NCBI GenBank assembly: GCA_026005015.1
Contig: BPKG01000001.1
Location: 124,001-188,000, forward strand
Length of the DNA: 64,000 bases
From: Burkholderiales bacterium
Lineage (GTDB): Bacteria; Pseudomonadota; Gammaproteobacteria; Burkholderiales; UBA6910
Direction of reading: 5' to 3'
Both the position numbers and the translations under genes were made by a program. Positions 34,884-46,032 of this stretch are shown here, in pieces; the first letter of the stretch is position 1, and each line of letters begins with the position of its first letter. The notes under the pieces were generated by a model. That model was not told the DNA's origin and did not search any database. It saw only the letters and a list, made by a program, of their open reading frames with translations.

Positions 34884-35830
34884 TCAGAGCACCAGGGGCT
34901 GGGTGAGGTCGACTCCCGGAAGGAGCCAGTCGAGCAGTCGCTGCAACTGGCGCTCGGCAGAAGGCGTAAGCCCTACGCCGGGATGGCGCACCCGGTTAGA
35001 CGCCAGTAGACCCCGACGGCGCAGGATCTCCTTGCGGATCGCCACCCCCGACTGTTGCTCGAACACGATGAGGGGCAGGAACCGGGCGTAGAGCGAGCGC
35101 ACCCGTGCCCAGTCGTTCTCCCCCTTGGCGCGGACCATGGCCAGGAGAACCTCGGGGAACGCGAAGCCGGTGTTGAACCCGTCCGCTCCTTCTTCCAGAT
35201 CGAAGAGCCCGTATAGGGCGCCCAGGCCGGTGAGAACGGGCACTCGCCGTCGCGTCATGCCCGCCACCAGGGCGGCGATCCGGGCCGGGGTGGGAAGCCC
35301 TTCCTCCTTGATGCGGCCACGCCGGGAACTTTCTCCACGATGCGGATCAAAAGGGAAACGGGCATGTGTACCTGGGTGGAGGCCGGATGATCCTGCACGA
35401 CCAGCGGAAGGGAGAGGGCTTTGCCGATGCGCTCGTAGTATTCCAGCAACCGCTCGTCGCTGGGCACCGGCTCGTGGGAGGGCGCCACCATCACGGCGGA
35501 GGCGCCCGATTTCGCGGCCATCCCCGCCAGCTCGATGGTGGCCCGGGTTCCGGGATGGCTGGCGCCTACGATGACCGGCATTCCCCCCGCCGCGGCCACC
35601 GCCGCCCGGACGACCTGCTCTCGCTCCCGATCGGTCAGGCGGTTCGATTCGCCCAGTACGCCCAGAACCGTGATGCCGTCGACCCCGATTGACTTCATGA
35701 AGCGGATCGTGCGCTCGAGGGAATCAAGATCCAGGCGCTCGTCGTCGTGGAAAGGGGTGGCGAGGATCGGATAGACTCCGGTGAGCGGGGAAATGGTCTG
35801 CCTTCCGGAAATGCCCTGGGGCTCGATCAT
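34884..35830 (-). pseudogene. DapA-family aldolase/lyase gene broken by a 1-base frameshift
   Basis: Two overlapping frames together make a full-length dihydrodipicolinate-synthase-family protein of about 315 residues. The first (from ATG 35830, MIEPQGISGRQ) covers the N-terminal barrel, with GVYPILATPFHDDE and GVDGITVLGVLGESNRL. The second begins near 35315 and runs to 34884 (AGMTRRRVPVLTGLGALYGL). The join falls where the family has VKEE or IKEE, the Schiff-base lysine; inserting one base in GCCGCATCAAGG restores AAIKEEGLPTPAR. The family Tyr region reads QDHPAST, as in uncharacterised DapA-like branches. It is either a recent pseudogene or a sequencing error. Confidence 0.8.
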
Positions 35831-36012
35831 GGGCTGGGCGGACCGGGTCGTCAACCTGTGCGCCGCCCGCGGGCTGGTCACGGGGGCGCATCGGCCCGGA
35901 GCGGCCAGGACCCGTGCGGCGCCGGCGCTTCCGCGCGCGCGCGAGGGTGGGGTGTCGGCCGGCGCGACGACCAAGTGCAGGAGATTCCCGTGGGCGAGCA
36001 AAGGTGACATTC

Positions 36013-38107: not shown

Positions 38108-38488
38108 GGCGTGCGCCCTTCGAGCGCCGGGCGGCGTCCGCAAGGCGCCCCGGCCGCTTTGCGGCGCCGTGTCCGGGCGGCTGCGAGTCAGTACGCGAAG
38201 CGCCGGTGAGAAGGAGCGCCCGTAGGGGATTCCATCTTTGATTCATGACCTAACCGCCGCGCGAGGGCATGGTTCGGATTGAAACACGATCCCTGCTGGG
38301 CCGTGGTGCCTCCCGCGCGGAGAAACCCTGCTTCGGGCTATCGGGTAAAGCCGGAGTGTCGCCGCCGCGGTGGTGAACACCCTGCGCCGCGAAATCCTGC
38401 ACCTCGTTCAGGCTCGTTTGAACGGGGAAGCCCTTCGCGTTAGATTCGCGTTTTCGGCGCTGTCCCAGCGCCCTCTTCCCTGTTGCCG
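38108..38488. other. Non-coding stretch before the MFS gene
   Basis: No convincing gene or RNA was seen. A short frame near 38370 (VVNTLRREILHLVQARLNGE) runs into the MFS start but has no recognisable family. The DNA is GC-rich with scattered short inverted repeats. A promoter for the MFS gene is expected here but could not be placed. Confidence 0.4.
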
Positions 38489-39754
38489 ATGATCGACTCC
38501 CGGTTGACCGACGCCCGCTGGCTCCTGCTCCTGTGCTTGAGCCGCATGAGCTTTTCCTTGATCTTCACCGTCTACTCGGGGATCCTGCCCCTGGTGCGGG
38601 AAGCGTGGGGAATGTCGGCGACCCAGGCGGGCCTGATCCAGAGTGCCTGGCACGCCGGGTTCCTGGTGTCCCTGTTCGCCGCCGGGATGATCAGCGACCG
38701 CAAGGGGGCTCGCTGGACATTTCTCCACATGAGCTATGGCGCGGTGGCGAGCGCGGCGCTGTTCGCCCTGCTGGCGGACGGTTTCCTCTCGGCGCTAATC
38801 CTCTACGGGCTGGCCGGCCTGTGCTCGGGGGGCTCCTACACGCCCGGCCTTACCCTCATCAGCGAGCGCTTCGAGCCCCACCGCCGCGGCCGGGCGATGG
38901 GGTTTTATCTCGCCGCCGCATCGCTGGGCTACGCCCTGTCCCTGTTTCTGGGCAGCTTCATAGCGCCGGCGGCCGGGTGGCGTGCCGCGCTAGCGGCGAG
39001 CGCGGCGGGCACCGTGATCGGGCTCACCCTCGGCGCCTGGGTGCTCCGGGATACCCCCAACCGGGTGAGCCGCCACGACCGGGCTCCGGTCCAGGGCAAC
39101 GGCCTCATGGAGGTGTGGCGCAACCGTCCGGCGCGGCTGATCATCCTCGCCTACTCGTTCCACGCCTGGGAACTGCTGGGGCTTTGGGCCTGGCTGCCCA
39201 CCTTCCTGGTGACCGCGATGGCCGCCAACGGGGGCGTGAGCCCCGGAAACGTGGGCACCGGCGTGCTGATTGCCGGGGTGTGCCACCTGCTTAGCGTGGC
39301 GGGCTCCGTGTCCGGCGGGACCCTGTCCGACCGCTACGGGCGCACCGCGGTGATCTTGCTGTTCGCCGGGACCAGCGCCGCCTGCTCCCTGATCTACGGC
39401 TGGCTCATCACCGCGCCCCTGTGGCTGCTGACGGTGGTGGCGATCGTCTACAACCTGGCAGCCATCGCCGACTCGTCGGTGTTCTCCACCGGGCTCACCG
39501 AGCTGGTCCCCCACCACTCCATCGGCGCGGCCTATTCCCTGCGCTCGGTGATCGGCTTCAGCATGGGAGCGGCCAGTTCCTGGGTCTTCGGGCTGACCCT
39601 GGATCTGGCAGGGGAACAACCGGGAGAGCCCCGCATGCTGGCCTGGGGGCTGGCCTTCTCCAGCCTGGGGGCGGCAGGACTCGCGGCCACTTATTTCACG
39701 TGGCGGCTGCGGCGCTCGGCCGAGAGCCGGCGCATGGCCGGTGGGCTGCGATGA
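38489..39754 (+). CDS. Major facilitator superfamily transporter
   Basis: A 421-residue transporter with about twelve membrane segments. The MFS loop 2-3 motif appears as AAGMISDRKGARW, and the second half has the matching GGTLSDRYGRTAV. The N-terminus (SRMSFSLIFTVYSGILPLVREAWG) resembles CynX/nitrate-type and sugar-phosphate-type carriers, but the substrate cannot be named. The ATG at 38489 is used; an in-frame TTG at 38483 has no better ribosome site. It is alone in its direction and converges on the GGDEF-EAL gene. Confidence 0.85.
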   Translation: MIDSRLTDARWLLLLCLSRMSFSLIFTVYSGILPLVREAWGMSATQAGLIQSAWHAGFLVSLFAAGMISDRKGARWTFLHMSYGAVASAALFALLADGFLSALILYGLAGLCSGGSYTPGLTLISERFEPHRRGRAMGFYLAAASLGYALSLFLGSFIAPAAGWRAALAASAAGTVIGLTLGAWVLRDTPNRVSRHDRAPVQGNGLMEVWRNRPARLIILAYSFHAWELLGLWAWLPTFLVTAMAANGGVSPGNVGTGVLIAGVCHLLSVAGSVSGGTLSDRYGRTAVILLFAGTSAACSLIYGWLITAPLWLLTVVAIVYNLAAIADSSVFSTGLTELVPHHSIGAAYSLRSVIGFSMGAASSWVFGLTLDLAGEQPGEPRMLAWGLAFSSLGAAGLAATYFTWRLRRSAESRRMAGGLR

Positions 39755-39838: not shown

Positions 39839-42664
39839 CTATTCTTTCAGCGCCGGTATGTATAGCGCCTTTTCCATCCGGCGCGGCGCACGTCGTGAAA
39901 TGTTCGGCAGGGGCCACCGGTGATCGGACCGCAGCAGGCTAAGAACCGCCTCAGACTCGCCTGGTTTCGCGAAGTAATAGCCCTGGGCCTGGTCGCAGCG
40001 GTGGGCGATGAGGAAGCGCACCTGGGCTTCCGTCTCGACGCCTTCCGCCGTGACCGCCAGGCCCAAGCTGTGGGCCAGGGAAATGATCGTCCGGGGGACG
40101 GTCGTATCTCCGCCTTCGGAGCCGATGCCCTGGAGGAAGAAGCGGTCGATCTTGAGCTCGTCGATGGGAAAGCGGTGGAGGTAGCTCAAGCTGGAGTAGC
40201 CCGTGCCGAAATCGTCGATGGCCAGCTTCAAGCCAAGATCCTTGAGCGCTCCGAGAACCGAGATGAAATCCTCCGCGCCGCACATGATGAGGCTTTCCGT
40301 AATCTCGAGCTTCAAGCGTCGCGGATCGAACCCGGTCTCGCCCAGGATGCGGTGAACCGCCTGTACGAAGTCTTTCTGCCGAAACTGGCGCGCCGAGACG
40401 TTGACCGCGAGGTGGACCGGCGGAAGGCCTTCCCGGTCCCACTCGATCGCCTGGGCGCAGGCCGCCCGCAGCACCCATTCTCCGAGGGGCACGATGAAAC
40501 CGTTCTGCTCCGCTACCGGAATGAAGCGCCCTGGCGAGAGCGGCCCGAGCTCGGGGTGGTTCCAGCGGACGAGGGCCTCGAGACCGGACATCCGGCCGGA
40601 ACGCAGGTCCACGATGGGCTGGAAGTGCAGGACCAGCTCGTTGCGGTCGAGGGCCCGGTGCAAGGCGTCCTCCAGGGCGGCGCGCTCCAGCGCGGCCGCG
40701 CTCATCTCCGGGGTATAGAAAGCGCCCCCATTGCCTCCCGCTTCCTTCGCCTGGTACATGGCCAGGTCCGCCCGGCTGAGGAGGGTGTCGGCATCCTCTC
40801 CGTGGATCGGGTAGCAGGCGAAACCGATGCTGCATGTCAGGCGCACTTCTTTGCCTGCGATGGAAAAAGGCGAGGCGAAGGCGTCGAAAATTTTCTGTAA
40901 AACCACCTCCGCATCCCGGCGGGTCTTCAAGTCCGGCGCCAGAACCACGAATTCGTCGCCGCCGAGCCGCGCCACGGTGTCGCTCGAGCGCAGGATGCGG
41001 CGCAGCCGTGCCGCGACCTCCCGGAGAATCCTGTCGCCGAAGGAGTGGCCGTGGTTGTCGTTGGCGACCTTGAGGCGGTCCAGGTCAAGGAACGCCACCC
41101 CCAGCATATTCCCCAAACGCGCGGCGCGGGTCATCGCCTGCTGTAGACGGTCTTGGAGCAGGATCCGGTTGGGAAGCTCGGTCAGCGGGTCATGGGTGGC
41201 GAGGTACTGGATATGTTTTTGCTGTTCCTTGCGCTCGGTGATGTCGGTCACCACGCCGATGCACACGCAGGCGCCGGGCTTGGATCCGCTCACCAGGCTG
41301 AGCCGCAGCCAGCCGATGTAGGGCGTGCCGTCCTTGCGCAGGGTGAACACCTCGCCTTCCCATCGACCGGCCGGGCCGAGGTCCTCCGCCGCCTGCGGAT
41401 ACCCTTGCCCGTCGTTGATCACGTGCATGATCTGCTGCAGCGGTCGGCCCACGCACTCCGCCGTCCCGTAGCCGGTGATGCGGGCCAGCGCGTCGTTCGC
41501 CCGCACTATCCGCAAGCCCTCGTCCAAAAGGAAAATGCCCTCCGAGCCGCTGTCGAACACCTTGGCGGCCAGGCGAAGCTCCGCGAGGTGTTTTTCCATC
41601 TTTCTGTAGGCGACCCGCAGCCGGTTCACCATCAGGGCGAGAGTCGTACCCAGCCGGCCCACCTCGTCGCGGCCCGCGACGGGCACGGCGAAGCCGTCGA
41701 GGTTTTCCAGGGTGGCCCGTTCGGCGGCGTCGCTGAGGGCAAGGAGAGGCGCGGTGAGGCGGCGCGAGATGCGGATGGAACCCCAGACCACCCACAGCAG
41801 GATCAAAGGCCACGCCCCCAGATAGGCTACGCTCAGGGAATCGAGGGGCAGATCCGCCGCCGCCTCTGGCGCGGACACCACCACTTTGAGTTGGAGAGCA
41901 GCGTAACGGGGCGGAAACTCGAGCGCCGCGACGGCTTCGGTCCGTGTCTGGCTGGAGGGGACGGAGCCGGCCTGGGCGAGCAGGTGATCGCGACCGGCCA
42001 CGAGCCGATGGGAAACGGGGAATAGCTCCAGAACGTCGTGGGCCACGAAAATACCGTCGAGCTCCACCTCGGCCAGCAGGAAACCTTCCGTGGTTCCCGT
42101 CGCCGGGTAGATCACCGGATGGATGATGAGCAGCCTTCGCCCGCTGGAGCCATGGGGCTCCAGCTCCACGTGGGGCTTGCCTTTGGCGAGGACGGAAGGA
42201 ACCCATGGGGCACCTCGATAGGAAAACGCCAGGCCGTCGGGCGGGAAAACCAAGGGTTTTCCCTGGAAGTCCAGCAGGCGGATCCGCACCGAGGTGCCAG
42301 GAGGCGCGCGGTAATCCGCAAGAAAAGGCGCCAGGTACTGCTCCCGGCCCACCGAGTCGCTCAACGCGTTGGTGACTAGGGTGGTGGAGGCGAGGCGGAC
42401 GAGATCCCGGTCGATGGCATCCAGGACGGAGGCGATCTGGGCAGCACGTATGTGGGCGTGGCTTTCCAACTGCATCTCGAAACGCTGCGCCATGAGATTC
42501 GAGATGACCAGGTAGGAGATGGCGCCGGTCAGGGCCATGACGCCCAGCGCTAGCGTCGCGGCTGCCGCCATGATGCGGTTGGCGATGCTGGCGGTAAGCC
42601 AGCTTTTTAGCCATCGCCACGGGGAAGCAAGAGGTAACCAGGATCGCGATGTCCAGACGCTCAT
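39839..42664 (-). CDS. Membrane PAS-GGDEF-EAL protein (c-di-GMP turnover)
   Basis: A 941-residue protein. Membrane segments at about 32-55 and 285-303 enclose a periplasmic sensor of 230 residues. A HAMP-like region (SIRISRRLTAPLLALSDAAE), a PAS domain (about 375-490), a GGDEF domain and an EAL domain follow. Both enzymes look active: ARLGGDEFVVL with an upstream RSSD inhibitory site, and EALVRW, NVSARQF, EITES, DDFGTGYSS, ELKID and AEGVET in the EAL part. Its ATG overlaps the stop of an upstream periplasmic binding-protein gene (ATGA), so the binding protein may deliver a ligand signal to this sensor. Confidence 0.93.
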   Translation of the reverse strand: MSVWTSRSWLPLASPWRWLKSWLTASIANRIMAAAATLALGVMALTGAISYLVISNLMAQRFEMQLESHAHIRAAQIASVLDAIDRDLVRLASTTLVTNALSDSVGREQYLAPFLADYRAPPGTSVRIRLLDFQGKPLVFPPDGLAFSYRGAPWVPSVLAKGKPHVELEPHGSSGRRLLIIHPVIYPATGTTEGFLLAEVELDGIFVAHDVLELFPVSHRLVAGRDHLLAQAGSVPSSQTRTEAVAALEFPPRYAALQLKVVVSAPEAAADLPLDSLSVAYLGAWPLILLWVVWGSIRISRRLTAPLLALSDAAERATLENLDGFAVPVAGRDEVGRLGTTLALMVNRLRVAYRKMEKHLAELRLAAKVFDSGSEGIFLLDEGLRIVRANDALARITGYGTAECVGRPLQQIMHVINDGQGYPQAAEDLGPAGRWEGEVFTLRKDGTPYIGWLRLSLVSGSKPGACVCIGVVTDITERKEQQKHIQYLATHDPLTELPNRILLQDRLQQAMTRAARLGNMLGVAFLDLDRLKVANDNHGHSFGDRILREVAARLRRILRSSDTVARLGGDEFVVLAPDLKTRRDAEVVLQKIFDAFASPFSIAGKEVRLTCSIGFACYPIHGEDADTLLSRADLAMYQAKEAGGNGGAFYTPEMSAAALERAALEDALHRALDRNELVLHFQPIVDLRSGRMSGLEALVRWNHPELGPLSPGRFIPVAEQNGFIVPLGEWVLRAACAQAIEWDREGLPPVHLAVNVSARQFRQKDFVQAVHRILGETGFDPRRLKLEITESLIMCGAEDFISVLGALKDLGLKLAIDDFGTGYSSLSYLHRFPIDELKIDRFFLQGIGSEGGDTTVPRTIISLAHSLGLAVTAEGVETEAQVRFLIAHRCDQAQGYYFAKPGESEAVLSLLRSDHRWPLPNISRRAPRRMEKALYIPALKE

Positions 42665-43859
42665 TTCGCGTCCTGCTCAAGGGGCGCAAGCGCTCCGTCT
42701 TCCGGTACCGGGCGATGAACAGGTCCCTGGGTTCGAGCGCTTCGTGACGGACGGGGGAGAAGGGCTGGGCATAGCGCTTGATGAGGCCGTCGTAGTCGCG
42801 CACCGCCTCCAGCGCCGCCCGCACCTTTGGGCGGTCGGTGGATCCGGCAAGATCGATGGCGCGGGCGAGGATGTGGGTAAGGTCGTAGGCATGGCCGAGC
42901 CCCACGGGAGACAGAACGCTCTCGGGGCTGCGCAGCCCATAGCGGCTCTCCAGGGCAGCGAGGACGCGCGTCGCCCGGGGGCTGCGGTTGCCGACCAAGG
43001 AAAAGGTCTGAACGACGGAAAAGTCCACCCGATGCAGGGCCTCCCCGGCCAGCGCGGCAAGATCGCCGCCGGTCACGCCCCAGTGGGCCAGAATGGGGCG
43101 CTGCTCCGTCTTGGGAAGTTGGGCGACTTCCTTGATCAACTGGGCGCCTTCGCCTTCGTTGGCAACGAGCACGATCGCCTCGGCGCCCGCCTGTGCCAGA
43201 CTCCGGTACTTGGGCGCGAGGGGCTTTTCGTCCCAGTTGAACCAATGGATGCCGACGCTGTGAATGCGAGCGCTTTCGGAAAGATAGGTCTCGATGGCGC
43301 CCTGGTTGCTCCTGCCCCAACTCGTGTTGGGAAGGAGGAAACCTACGCGCCGGAAGCCGCGGTTCTCGGCATGCCCGAGGAGGCTGGCGATCGCCCAGCG
43401 GTCCCGAAGGGAGAGGCGGAACACGTAGTTGGGGTCATAGCCGTTGTCGATGATGTTGTCGGCGGCCGCCCAGGGATTTAGCACGATGAGCTTGTGTTCG
43501 TGGATCAAGGGTAGCACCTCCAGGACCGTCGGGCTGAACTTGCCGCAGAACACGGCGACCAGGTCCGGCACCTTCAGGAGGTCCAGGAGATTGGCGCGGG
43601 CACGGGCCGGGATGGAGCGGTTGTCCCGTACCAGCAGCTTCAATGGCCGGCCGCCGAGGACGCCGCCCGCCGCGTTGATTTCCTCGATGGCGATCTCGAT
43701 GCCCTGCTGGATGGCCTGGGCGGAGGTGCTGGTCCTGTGGCCGAATTCCGCGTCCAGGCCGATGAATACGGGAGGTTGCCCCGTGGCCAGGGACAGATGA
43801 GGGAAAAGGAGAGCGAAGCACAGGCCGCTCAAGGTCATCCACCTTCGGACACCACCCAT
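42661..43859 (-). CDS. Periplasmic amino-acid-type ABC binding protein, probable 1-base frameshift near the end
   Basis: About 398 residues. The signal peptide is MTLSGLCFALLFPHLSLATG, and the mature chain follows the LivJ/urea-type binding fold (PPVFIGLDAEFGHRTSTSAQ, then INAAGGVLGGRPLKLLVRDN). The ATG at 43859 has AGGAGG 4 bases upstream. Near 42703 the frame that carries the fold fails to stop; adding one base in CGGTACCGGAAG would give RYRxEDGALAPLEQDAK and a TGA at 42661 that overlaps the next ATG. No ABC permease or ATPase gene is nearby, so its partner is more likely the GGDEF-EAL protein. Confidence 0.8.
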
Positions 43860-44104
43860 ACCGCCTCCTATTGAAGTCTGGGGTCTTGCCCACCGCTGCG
43901 ATTTAACCTCTGGGCAGACGGGTGAACATGCTTCGAGGAAACCGCTTACGCGGAGAAAGCACAAACCGCGCCACTCGTTCTTTGCTCGATCGGTAAAGCC
44001 TAACAGGGTGTTGATAAATGCCCCGTAACATCAAGTTGCGTGTCTCTCGACGCGTCCCGGACTGCCGGATCGGTGCCGGCAGGGGCGTTGTTTTGTTCCT
44101 TCAT

Positions 44105-45112
44105 GGTAATCCCGTTACCTTTTTGGCTTTTCGGGCGGACTCATCCCGTCGCGGCCGTATGCAATCGCGCCATTCTCAGCCGGTGGTAGGCTGCCCCGAC
44201 CAGGTAGGCGGCCATCTGGGTCTTGGCCTGCCCGATGAAGCGGGTCTTTCGCCATCCCCCGATGGGCTTCATCCAGCCGAAGATCTCCTCGATGCGTTTG
44301 CGCTGACCGATGGCGTAACCGCTGTGCCGGGTGGTGCGGGCATCGAGGCCCGGGGTGACGCGGCCCGCGATGCGGGCGACGTGCGGGGCAATGCCTCGAC
44401 CGCGCAGCCGCTTCACGAACGCCTTGGTGTGATAGCCCTTGTCGGCGCCGAGCGTGCGCAGGCGGCTTCGGGCCCGGCGCCGTCGGTCCACCAGCGCTGC
44501 TCCCGCTTGGGGTTCGGCGAGGGTGGCCTCGGTAATCGCGATGTCCACAAGCAGCCCGTGGCGGTTCTCCATGAGCGCGTGCGCCCCGTCGGCCAGTTTC
44601 GCCGGCTGGCCGCCGCCCTTCCGCATGAGCTTGGCCTCGGGATCGGTCGTGGATTCGCGGGTCGAGTTGCTGCGCCGTTCGCCGCGGAAGTCGACCATGC
44701 CGCTGCCGTCGTCCCCGTCCCGGGGCGGCGTGCCCTCCTTCCTTTTGAAGCTCTTGCACGAGTCCCAGGCCTCGATCGGCGTGCCGTCCACGGTGAAGTG
44801 CTCATAAGCGCGCGCGGTTCAAGGAGAAGGTCGAAGGGTCGAAGGCTCGTGCCTCGAGCTCCATGTCGAGAAACCAGCGAAACAGCATGTTGTAGTCGAG
44901 CCTCCCGCAGAAGAGCCGCTCGGATCGGACCGAGGAGAGCGCAATCAGCGGGCTTGCCTGCAGCAGCCGCTCGGGCGCGATCGAGGGCCTCCTCCCTCGG
45001 CCTACATCGCGTCAAAGGCCGCGCTCATCGAGGCGAGGACCGCATCGGCTTGGCGCTTGATCGCCCGCAGCGGATGCTCGGCCGGAATGCGCTCTTCGAT
45101 CGAGACAACCTG
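44105..45112 (-). mobile_element. Decayed IS5-family insertion sequence
   Basis: The interval holds a recognisable but broken IS5-type transposase reading leftward. Ends are approximate: no terminal inverted repeat pair or target duplication could be identified. The nearest genes are the binding-protein gene on the left and flhD on the right, so the element marks a junction between the accessory and flagellar regions. Confidence 0.7.
44141..45112 (-). pseudogene. IS5-family transposase, several disabling mutations
   Basis: The C-terminal DDE part is open from 44791 to 44141 (DGTPIEAWDSCKSFKRKEG; LGADKGYHTKAFVKRLRGRG; KRIEEIFGWMKPIGG). The N-terminal part can be followed in other frames: VVSIEERIPAEHPLRAIKRQ, then FDAM and a TAG at 45002-45004, a frameshift in the following GGAGGAGG run, then RSERLFCGRLDYNMLFRWFL and FSLNRARL. 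The middle segment before EHFTVDGTPIEAW is missing. Nonsense, frameshift and internal deletion together mean it cannot make a working enzyme. There is also no start codon in the expected position. Confidence 0.85.
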
Positions 45113-45711: not shown

Positions 45712-46032
45712 ATGGACCAGAATCGATGGATGGAGGAGATTCGCGAGCTCAACCTTGCTTATTTGCTGCTTGCCCAGCAGATGGTCCGGCAAGATCGGGC
45801 AGCGGCTTTGTTGCGTCTGGGCATCGGCGAGGAGATGGCCGATATCCTCGCCGCGCTAACGCCTGGACAAATCAGCAAGATGGCAGGCTCCAACCTGTTG
45901 CTGTGCCGTTTCCGCTTCGACGACAGCCTGATTCTCGATATGCTTTCCAGCTACACCAAGGACCGCATGCTGGGGGCTTCCCATGCCGCAATCCTGCTTT
46001 CCGGCCAACCGGCGCCGGCGGTGACTGCCTGA
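45712..46032 (+). CDS. flhD: Flagellar transcriptional activator FlhD
   Basis: A 106-residue helical protein that forms the FlhD4C2 master activator with FlhC. Characteristic segments are IRELNLAYLLLAQQMVRQDR and LAALTPGQISKMAGSNLLLC. GGGAGG lies about 8 bases upstream. It heads the flagellar region and is followed by flhC after 17 bases. FlhDC-controlled flagella are found in Betaproteobacteria and enteric bacteria, not in Alpha- or most Gammaproteobacteria with polar flagella. Confidence 0.95.
   Translation: MDQNRWMEEIRELNLAYLLLAQQMVRQDRAAALLRLGIGEEMADILAALTPGQISKMAGSNLLLCRFRFDDSLILDMLSSYTKDRMLGASHAAILLSGQPAPAVTA

Follow-up and report, generated by a model that had tools for sequence, protein, structure and literature searches.

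In the genome of a Burkholderiales bacterium (GCA_026005015.1), a gene for a solute-binding protein (SBP) of the LivJ/urea type lies directly upstream of a gene for a membrane protein with GGDEF and EAL domains. Both are found within the stretch of 64,000 nucleotides analysed here (contig BPKG01000001.1, positions 124,001–188,000), which is called the window below. We suggest that the two proteins form a two-protein sensory receptor in which the ligand state of the SBP is read by a dCache-like domain of the membrane protein, and that the SBP is not a transporter subunit; judged from the sequences, we put the probability of this reading at roughly three in four. The observations behind it are the domains, the motifs, the conserved pairing of the genes, the swapped outputs among the relatives and the fold class. 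The SBP would be secreted to the periplasm and bind a small molecule there, and the dCache-like domain in the periplasmic part of the receptor would read its ligand state, presumably through binding of the SBP to this domain. The signal would then pass through the HAMP and PAS domains to the GGDEF and EAL domains. With both of these presumably active, the balance between synthesis and breakdown of cyclic di-GMP (c-di-GMP) would shift in one direction or the other.

The two proteins and their pairing in other genomes

The SBP matches Peripla_BP_6 in Pfam with an E value of 9e-38, which places it in the LivJ/urea superfamily as the first-pass annotation of the window had proposed; ANF_receptor and Peripla_BP_5 are its only other Pfam matches. 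The N-terminus has a signal-like stretch, and the homology to the relatives extends to about residue 395 (position 42675), beyond which the reading frame is broken. The structural model of the SBP (predicted local distance difference test, pLDDT, 97) is best matched in the PDB by 4q6w (Z 42.8, 360 residues aligned, root-mean-square deviation, rmsd, 2.2), and LivJ, UrtA and AmiC are further matches. The permease and ATPase genes of an ATP-binding cassette (ABC) transporter, which would be expected beside an SBP of the HAAT/LivJ type, are not found beside it. None of the seven flanking open reading frames (ORFs) scanned is of the LivH/M/F/G type, so that the earlier description of a binding protein without transporter genes stands; one flanking ORF encodes a transporter of the major facilitator superfamily (38483–39754).

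The receptor has two hydrophobic segments, near residues 36–49 and 285–288. Its GGDEF domain carries the motif RxxD(5)GGDEF at residue 559, and its EAL domain the motifs EALVRW, NVSARQ, EITES, DDFGTG, KID and EGVE; we take these motifs to have their customary meaning, with RxxD as the inhibitory site. Domains, model and motifs thus bear out the first description of a membrane protein with a periplasmic sensor and intact synthase and phosphodiesterase motifs. The sensor region scores 20.1 bits with dCache_1 of Pfam, under the gathering cut-off of 45. Its AlphaFold model, built from 45 aligned sequences (mean pLDDT 89.8), is best matched in the PDB by the sensor of sporulation kinase D (4jgp; Z 17.5, 199 residues aligned, rmsd 2.6) and also by the sensor of a GGDEF protein (2p7j, Z 16.7) and by DctB (3e4o, Z 16.5), the sensor domains of the sporulation kinase D, DctB and PctA types matching at Z about 14–17.5. 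The periplasmic domain is therefore predicted to have a dCache fold. Foldseek also lists LuxQ (2hje, 2hj9, 3c30) as a weak match to this model (template modelling score by target 0.45–0.52); LuxQ is not among the best 50 matches from a second structural aligner. A further match (Z 16.4) covers residues 352–593 of PDB 5ere, a 540-residue "extracellular ligand binding receptor" from Desulfohalobium retbaense. If the other half of 5ere is a binding protein, as it may be, the structure would represent a fused form of the SBP–receptor pair.

A profile of three SBP sequences was run against 84,980 species genomes and yielded 174 relatives, from which the best 80 were kept by patterns taken from three signalling members; the set therefore leans to close relatives. 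In 78 of these 80 a receptor ORF on the same strand starts no more than 700 bp downstream. The outputs of these receptors are 63 histidine kinases and 12 GGDEF or GGDEF-EAL proteins (L028, L029, L031, L035, L040, L046, L047, L048, L074, L093, L096, L100), the remaining three being cut by contig ends and unreadable (L030, L032, L052). These outputs were assigned by BLAST to reference domains; nine receptors as well as L023 and L024 were also run through Pfam, from which the kinase label of L067 is taken. The receptor ORF of L078 begins about 0.6 kb after the SBP, in L047, L069 and L090 sensor and output lie in separate ORFs, and a sensor-like stretch of at least 280 amino acids was detected in 53 of the 80 loci. 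That most relatives of the SBP pair with histidine kinases goes beyond what could be known from the window. Among the listed neighbours of the 80 loci there is no LivH hit; ATPase-like hits are found at L049, L068 and L079, in the last case directly after the SBP and on the opposite strand.

As the profile scan was patterned on signalling members, pattern-free searches were made as a check. Among the matches listed from 59 other genomes of the order or nearer (the last 25 residues of the query being the out-of-frame tail), long SBP matches of at least 44% identity occur in two genomes, G051 and G005, both followed by a receptor. Six of 368 other genomes of the class have an SBP match at E ≤ 1e-90, with 45–58% identity, and a receptor or sensor ORF is next to it in all six. 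Taken together (G051 is in both sets), seven of seven other genomes with at least 44% identity among the matches listed have a receptor next to the SBP. At 24–35% identity the picture is different: a LivH-type permease lies directly downstream in 13 of 18 more distant loci (L005–L021 and L026; L027, which runs into a contig end, was left uncounted), and L011, L018, L019 and L020 have no reference hit beside the SBP. Beside one of these distant SBPs (L021, 26%) an EAL-domain ORF lies upstream on the same strand. Approached from the sensor side, 398 other genomes of the order contain seven matches at E ≤ 1e-12, five of them with an SBP directly upstream.

Adjacency in other genomes, which the first-pass annotation had named as the way to check its proposal, is thus seen from both partners, and the homologues are neither always next to permeases nor without conserved pairing. 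This pairing supports the view that the SBP is coupled to the PAS-GGDEF-EAL protein as a sensing pair. From it one would also take close relatives labelled "ABC transporter substrate-binding protein", such as those on four Azospirillum plasmids, to be signalling proteins. When the neighbouring ORFs were clustered and judged by eye, no recurrent partner beyond the SBP–receptor pair was seen among the clusters listed, which consist of receptors, response regulators, Azospirillum synteny and apparent out-of-frame shadows. At one locus (L139:4685-11536) an SBP, a PAS-GGDEF receptor and a GGDEF-EAL protein follow each other on one strand.

Table 1. Positions in the window of the two genes, their domains and their start signals
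Feature	Position	Strand	Basis or remark
SBP gene, Peripla_BP_6 (periplasmic binding protein, PBP, type I fold)	42675..43859	minus	ATG at 43859; Pfam, alignments, tail comparison, model
AGGAGG, likely ribosome-binding site of the SBP gene	43864..43869	minus	Sequence
AGGA, likely ribosome-binding site of the GGDEF-EAL gene, at the SBP gene end	42671..42674	minus	Sequence
ATGA, start of the GGDEF-EAL gene	42661..42664	minus	TGA outside the SBP frame as assembled
Membrane receptor, 941 amino acids: transmembrane segment, dCache-like, transmembrane segment, HAMP, PAS, GGDEF, EAL	39839..42664	minus	Pfam, model, motifs
dCache-like periplasmic sensor, residues about 55-275	41840..42502	minus	AlphaFold model, PDB matches
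HAMP, residues 299-350	41615..41770	minus	PF00672
PAS, residues 375-477	41234..41542	minus	PF13426
GGDEF diguanylate cyclase domain, residues 489-645, with GGDEF motif and RxxD I-site	40730..41200	minus	PF00990, motifs
EAL phosphodiesterase domain, residues 666-901, catalytic motifs intact	39962..40669	minus	PF00563, motifs

The junction of the two genes

The first-pass annotation stated that the two genes overlap by ATGA. These bases are present at 42664–42661, but the claim of an overlap fails because the reading frame of the SBP does not end there, a break which had been overlooked. The SBP frame extends from 43964 as far as 41190 (ORF 41190–43964) and thus continues past ATGA for about 1.47 kb inside the receptor gene, in another frame. 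The TGA of ATGA lies in the third frame, and the receptor frame itself has a stop just upstream of its own ATG. A single polypeptide of SBP and receptor was rejected on account of this last stop and because in the 80 loci no ORF matched both SBP and receptor references among the up to six hits listed for it.

Up to RLRPL the SBP of the window follows the tail pattern of its relatives, which is lost beyond that point. Measured from the arginine of the RY-like motif, the tail is 12–28 residues long in 78 of the 80 relatives and 62 in one, and that of L051 is unreadable (read as 0). Of the two stops near the junction, the one in ATGA would give a tail of 16 residues and the other one of 10. As the tails of the relatives have 12–62 residues, the comparison favours an SBP frame that would end at ATGA. 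Tight coupling of both genes is usual among the relatives: with the first in-frame ATG or GTG taken as the start of the receptor, 13 of 76 scored loci have a 4-base overlap, and gaps of 0–30 bases are found in 37 of the 76.

The broken frame raises the possibility that the pair is decaying in this genome, so that only the GGDEF-EAL protein or neither of the two works. Besides the overrun of the SBP frame beyond its expected end into an out-of-frame stretch, this reading is favoured by a transposase ORF 0.3 kb upstream of the pair, by the lack of the pair in the sister genome G001 and by a second SBP copy in the window's own genome that is fused to a TraB/GumN C-terminus. This copy (L022:6510-7835, contig C1) lies about 65 kb from the pair and shares 759 bp at 98.55% identity with positions 43035–43793 of the window; it has its own diverged signal region, and the TraB/GumN part follows in frame after the 759 bp. 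The high identity followed by a foreign end argues for an SBP gene that was copied or converted within the genome, or for a misassembly. A PilZ/YcgR-type protein and an EAL-HDOD protein are encoded next to the copy.

Nevertheless, we consider such decay unlikely. Two other conserved genes of the genome are broken as well. One is a gene of the dihydrodipicolinate-synthase family on the minus strand (about 34900–35900, near 35.2 kb), which is split by a frame change; its Pfam match reaches no further than profile position 159 of 289, and the rest continues in another frame. The other is a transporter-type SBP gene at 109 kb of contig C1 (L167, G000:C1:108900-112500), in which a frame change leaves two overlapping half matches. 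A shift of the SBP frame in the direction seen in both these genes would bring it to the ATGA stop. Thus, an indel of the assembly is likely to lie behind the break of the SBP frame as well, and assembly error rather than real decay appears the more likely explanation, even though decay could produce the same pattern. In addition, the other 395 residues of the SBP are undamaged, as is the receptor over its full length, and a likely ribosome-binding site precedes each gene.

Divergence of SBP, sensor and output

Over the 38 loci for which both parts were available the SBPs have a mean identity of 47% and the sensors one of 23%. The distances of SBPs and sensors are correlated with r = 0.69, a value reached by none of 5000 permutations, and the correlation is 0.48 among the 661 more distant pairs. 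The outputs were placed on an SBP tree of 88 rows made by a quick method, in which L030, L032, L041, L052, L079 and three transporter-type rows carry no output label. On this tree the kinase/GGDEF label needs about six changes; the well-supported branches force at least two changes of the GGDEF label, and L100 sits on a long branch.

The SBPs have 13 invariant columns in 48 sequences and the sensor alignment two in 45, as it should be if it is the SBP that recognises the ligand. Among the invariant SBP residues (full-length numbering) are W130, R148, W181-G182, H259-W260-G261, G265 and Q284, and these residues presumably line the ligand pocket. The residues named are also kept in three transporter-type relatives, in which R183, W206, R343 and E351 are not. 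Altogether, 36 of 50 near-invariant positions are common to three more distant relatives, two of them encoded beside permeases and the third cut at a contig end. The pocket may therefore be old and shared with a transporter family, with some positions specific to the signalling branch.

Several observations weigh against a two-protein receptor. As assembled, the SBP gene has a broken frame, and two of the 80 SBP relatives (L041 and L079) have no adjacent receptor, the SBP of L041 having a dapD-like gene (Pfam) as its neighbour. The second SBP copy of the genome has lost its C-terminal part and adjoins no receptor, and it is the sole exception at the level of at least 44% identity. On the sensor side, two of the seven relatives (L130 and L131) lack an upstream SBP within the stretch read, so that the sensor may sometimes act alone. 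Furthermore, the correlation of SBP and sensor distances may stem from shared organism history, and adjacency of the genes is no proof of contact between the proteins.

The sensors without an upstream SBP also fit a scheme in which the dCache-like domain senses the ligand directly and the SBP is independent or only delivers the ligand. This would agree with known receptors whose dCache domains bind their ligands directly, for example PctA and sporulation kinase D, both among the PDB matches of the sensor, and SpdE (PMC8846402). However, the sensors have drifted far apart while the SBPs paired with them have kept about twice the identity, and two invariant columns are unlike a conserved ligand pocket in the sensor. 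We therefore regard direct sensing as quite improbable. Still more doubtful, indeed very improbable, is that the SBP serves an ABC importer encoded elsewhere and lies next to the GGDEF-EAL gene incidentally: the genome does contain ten over-cut-off matches to LivH/M-type permeases in five groups, and the more distant SBP relatives with the similar pocket signature are ordinary transporter subunits, but each of the five groups has its own Peripla_BP_6 protein within about 1.5 kb, and the close relatives of the SBP adjoin receptors and not LivH-type genes.

Known systems, possible ligands and genome context

By analogy, the pair would most likely work like NspS–MbaA, with another SBP family in the place of NspS. 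NspS is a PotD-like protein, which belongs to another Pfam family and fold type; it binds polyamines and is set apart by description from the SBP of the window with its Peripla_BP_6 domain and PBP type I fold. NspS–MbaA of Vibrio cholerae and Sinorhizobium meliloti likewise consists of a periplasmic binding protein and a membrane GGDEF-EAL protein (PMC8967002, PMC9993111). Norspermidine-bound NspS favours c-di-GMP synthesis, and NspS that is free or bound to spermidine leaves MbaA degrading c-di-GMP (PMC8967002). The window shares with this system an SBP without transporter genes of its own, an adjacent GGDEF-EAL membrane protein with a periplasmic domain and the conserved pairing of both. It differs in that its receptor carries HAMP and PAS domains and in that most relatives of the pair use histidine kinases.

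LuxP–LuxQ combines a binding protein of PBP type I with a dCache-type receptor domain; its output is a hybrid kinase and its ligand autoinducer 2. This kinase output is absent from the receptor of the window, which has GGDEF and EAL domains instead, and hybrid-kinase relatives such as L023 are nearer to LuxPQ in this respect. In Vibrio parahaemolyticus the periplasmic solute-binding protein ScrB reportedly acts on the GGDEF-EAL membrane protein ScrC, an arrangement that would resemble our pair. For SBP-activated cyclases and phosphodiesterases Trimble and McCarter 2011, by its cited title a study of quorum sensing, is referred to in PMC9602780, which describes the binding of SBPs to receptors of several types, cyclases and phosphodiesterases included, as general and widespread. 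In SpdE and other dCache diguanylate cyclases, too, a c-di-GMP enzyme carries a dCache-type domain; amino acids are bound by SpdE directly, and the passage on it mentions no SBP partner (PMC8846402), whereas the receptor of the window has an adjacent SBP. With binding proteins of transporters and regulators of the LivJ, UrtA and AmiC types the SBP shares fold and Pfam family, but the flanks scanned hold no such transporter gene and its close relatives stand beside receptors.

Systems of this class are thus known; what is new is which SBP family takes part, how broad the family is and that outputs have been exchanged. Many c-di-GMP receptors are, to our knowledge, without a known signal. Among literature titles and abstracts, in a search that left subscription papers mostly outside, none dealt with a Peripla_BP_6 SBP and a GGDEF protein. 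From the domains of the periplasmic-binding-protein clan in c-di-GMP proteins only SBP_bac_3 has been studied according to a review of c-di-GMP sensing, in the main text of which NspS does not occur (PMC8846402). We see even chances that the pair belongs to a widespread and apparently undescribed family across Pseudomonadota, Thermodesulfobacteriota, Myxococcota and Campylobacterota, in which one conserved SBP with a nearly invariant pocket signature, and perhaps with one ligand, is read by fast-diverging dCache-like receptors whose outputs changed several times from phosphorelay kinases to c-di-GMP enzymes or back. If so, the ligand would point to an environmental cue that the members share but answer in different ways. 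The family is a tractable set, with paired receptors that vary in output and SBPs so conserved that a ligand found in one cultured member may hold for many; cultured members are, for example, Thiocystis violacea DSM 207 (L031) and Formivibrio citricus DSM 6150 (L028).

As to the ligand, the structure 4q6w is bound to 3-hydroxybenzoate, which is only a hint. Seven of the 80 loci, all from Azospirillum, lie upstream of paaA. The same genomes also agree in having OsmC, rimO and a helix-turn-helix gene in comparable positions, which looks like plain synteny, and the genome of the window has no PaaA_PaaC match; paaA was therefore rejected as a ligand lead for the window. On plasmid AZO_p4 of Azospirillum lipoferum 4B (L142) the SBP and kinase genes upstream of paaABCDE are annotated as ABC transporter substrate-binding and ATP-binding proteins.

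The pair had also been described as lying just upstream of the flagellar region. The distance is correct, with flhD at 45712, but a DDE transposase ORF (44141–44791, minus strand; PF01609, profile positions 38–198 of 200) stands between the pair and flhDC. The sister genome G001 retains flhDC-motAB at 81–85% protein identity, and SBP and sensor searches did not find the pair there at this level among the matches listed. With the transposase intervening, and with G001 carrying a different GGDEF-EAL gene upstream of its flhDC (L136:4128-5528), closeness to flhDC was rejected as functional evidence.

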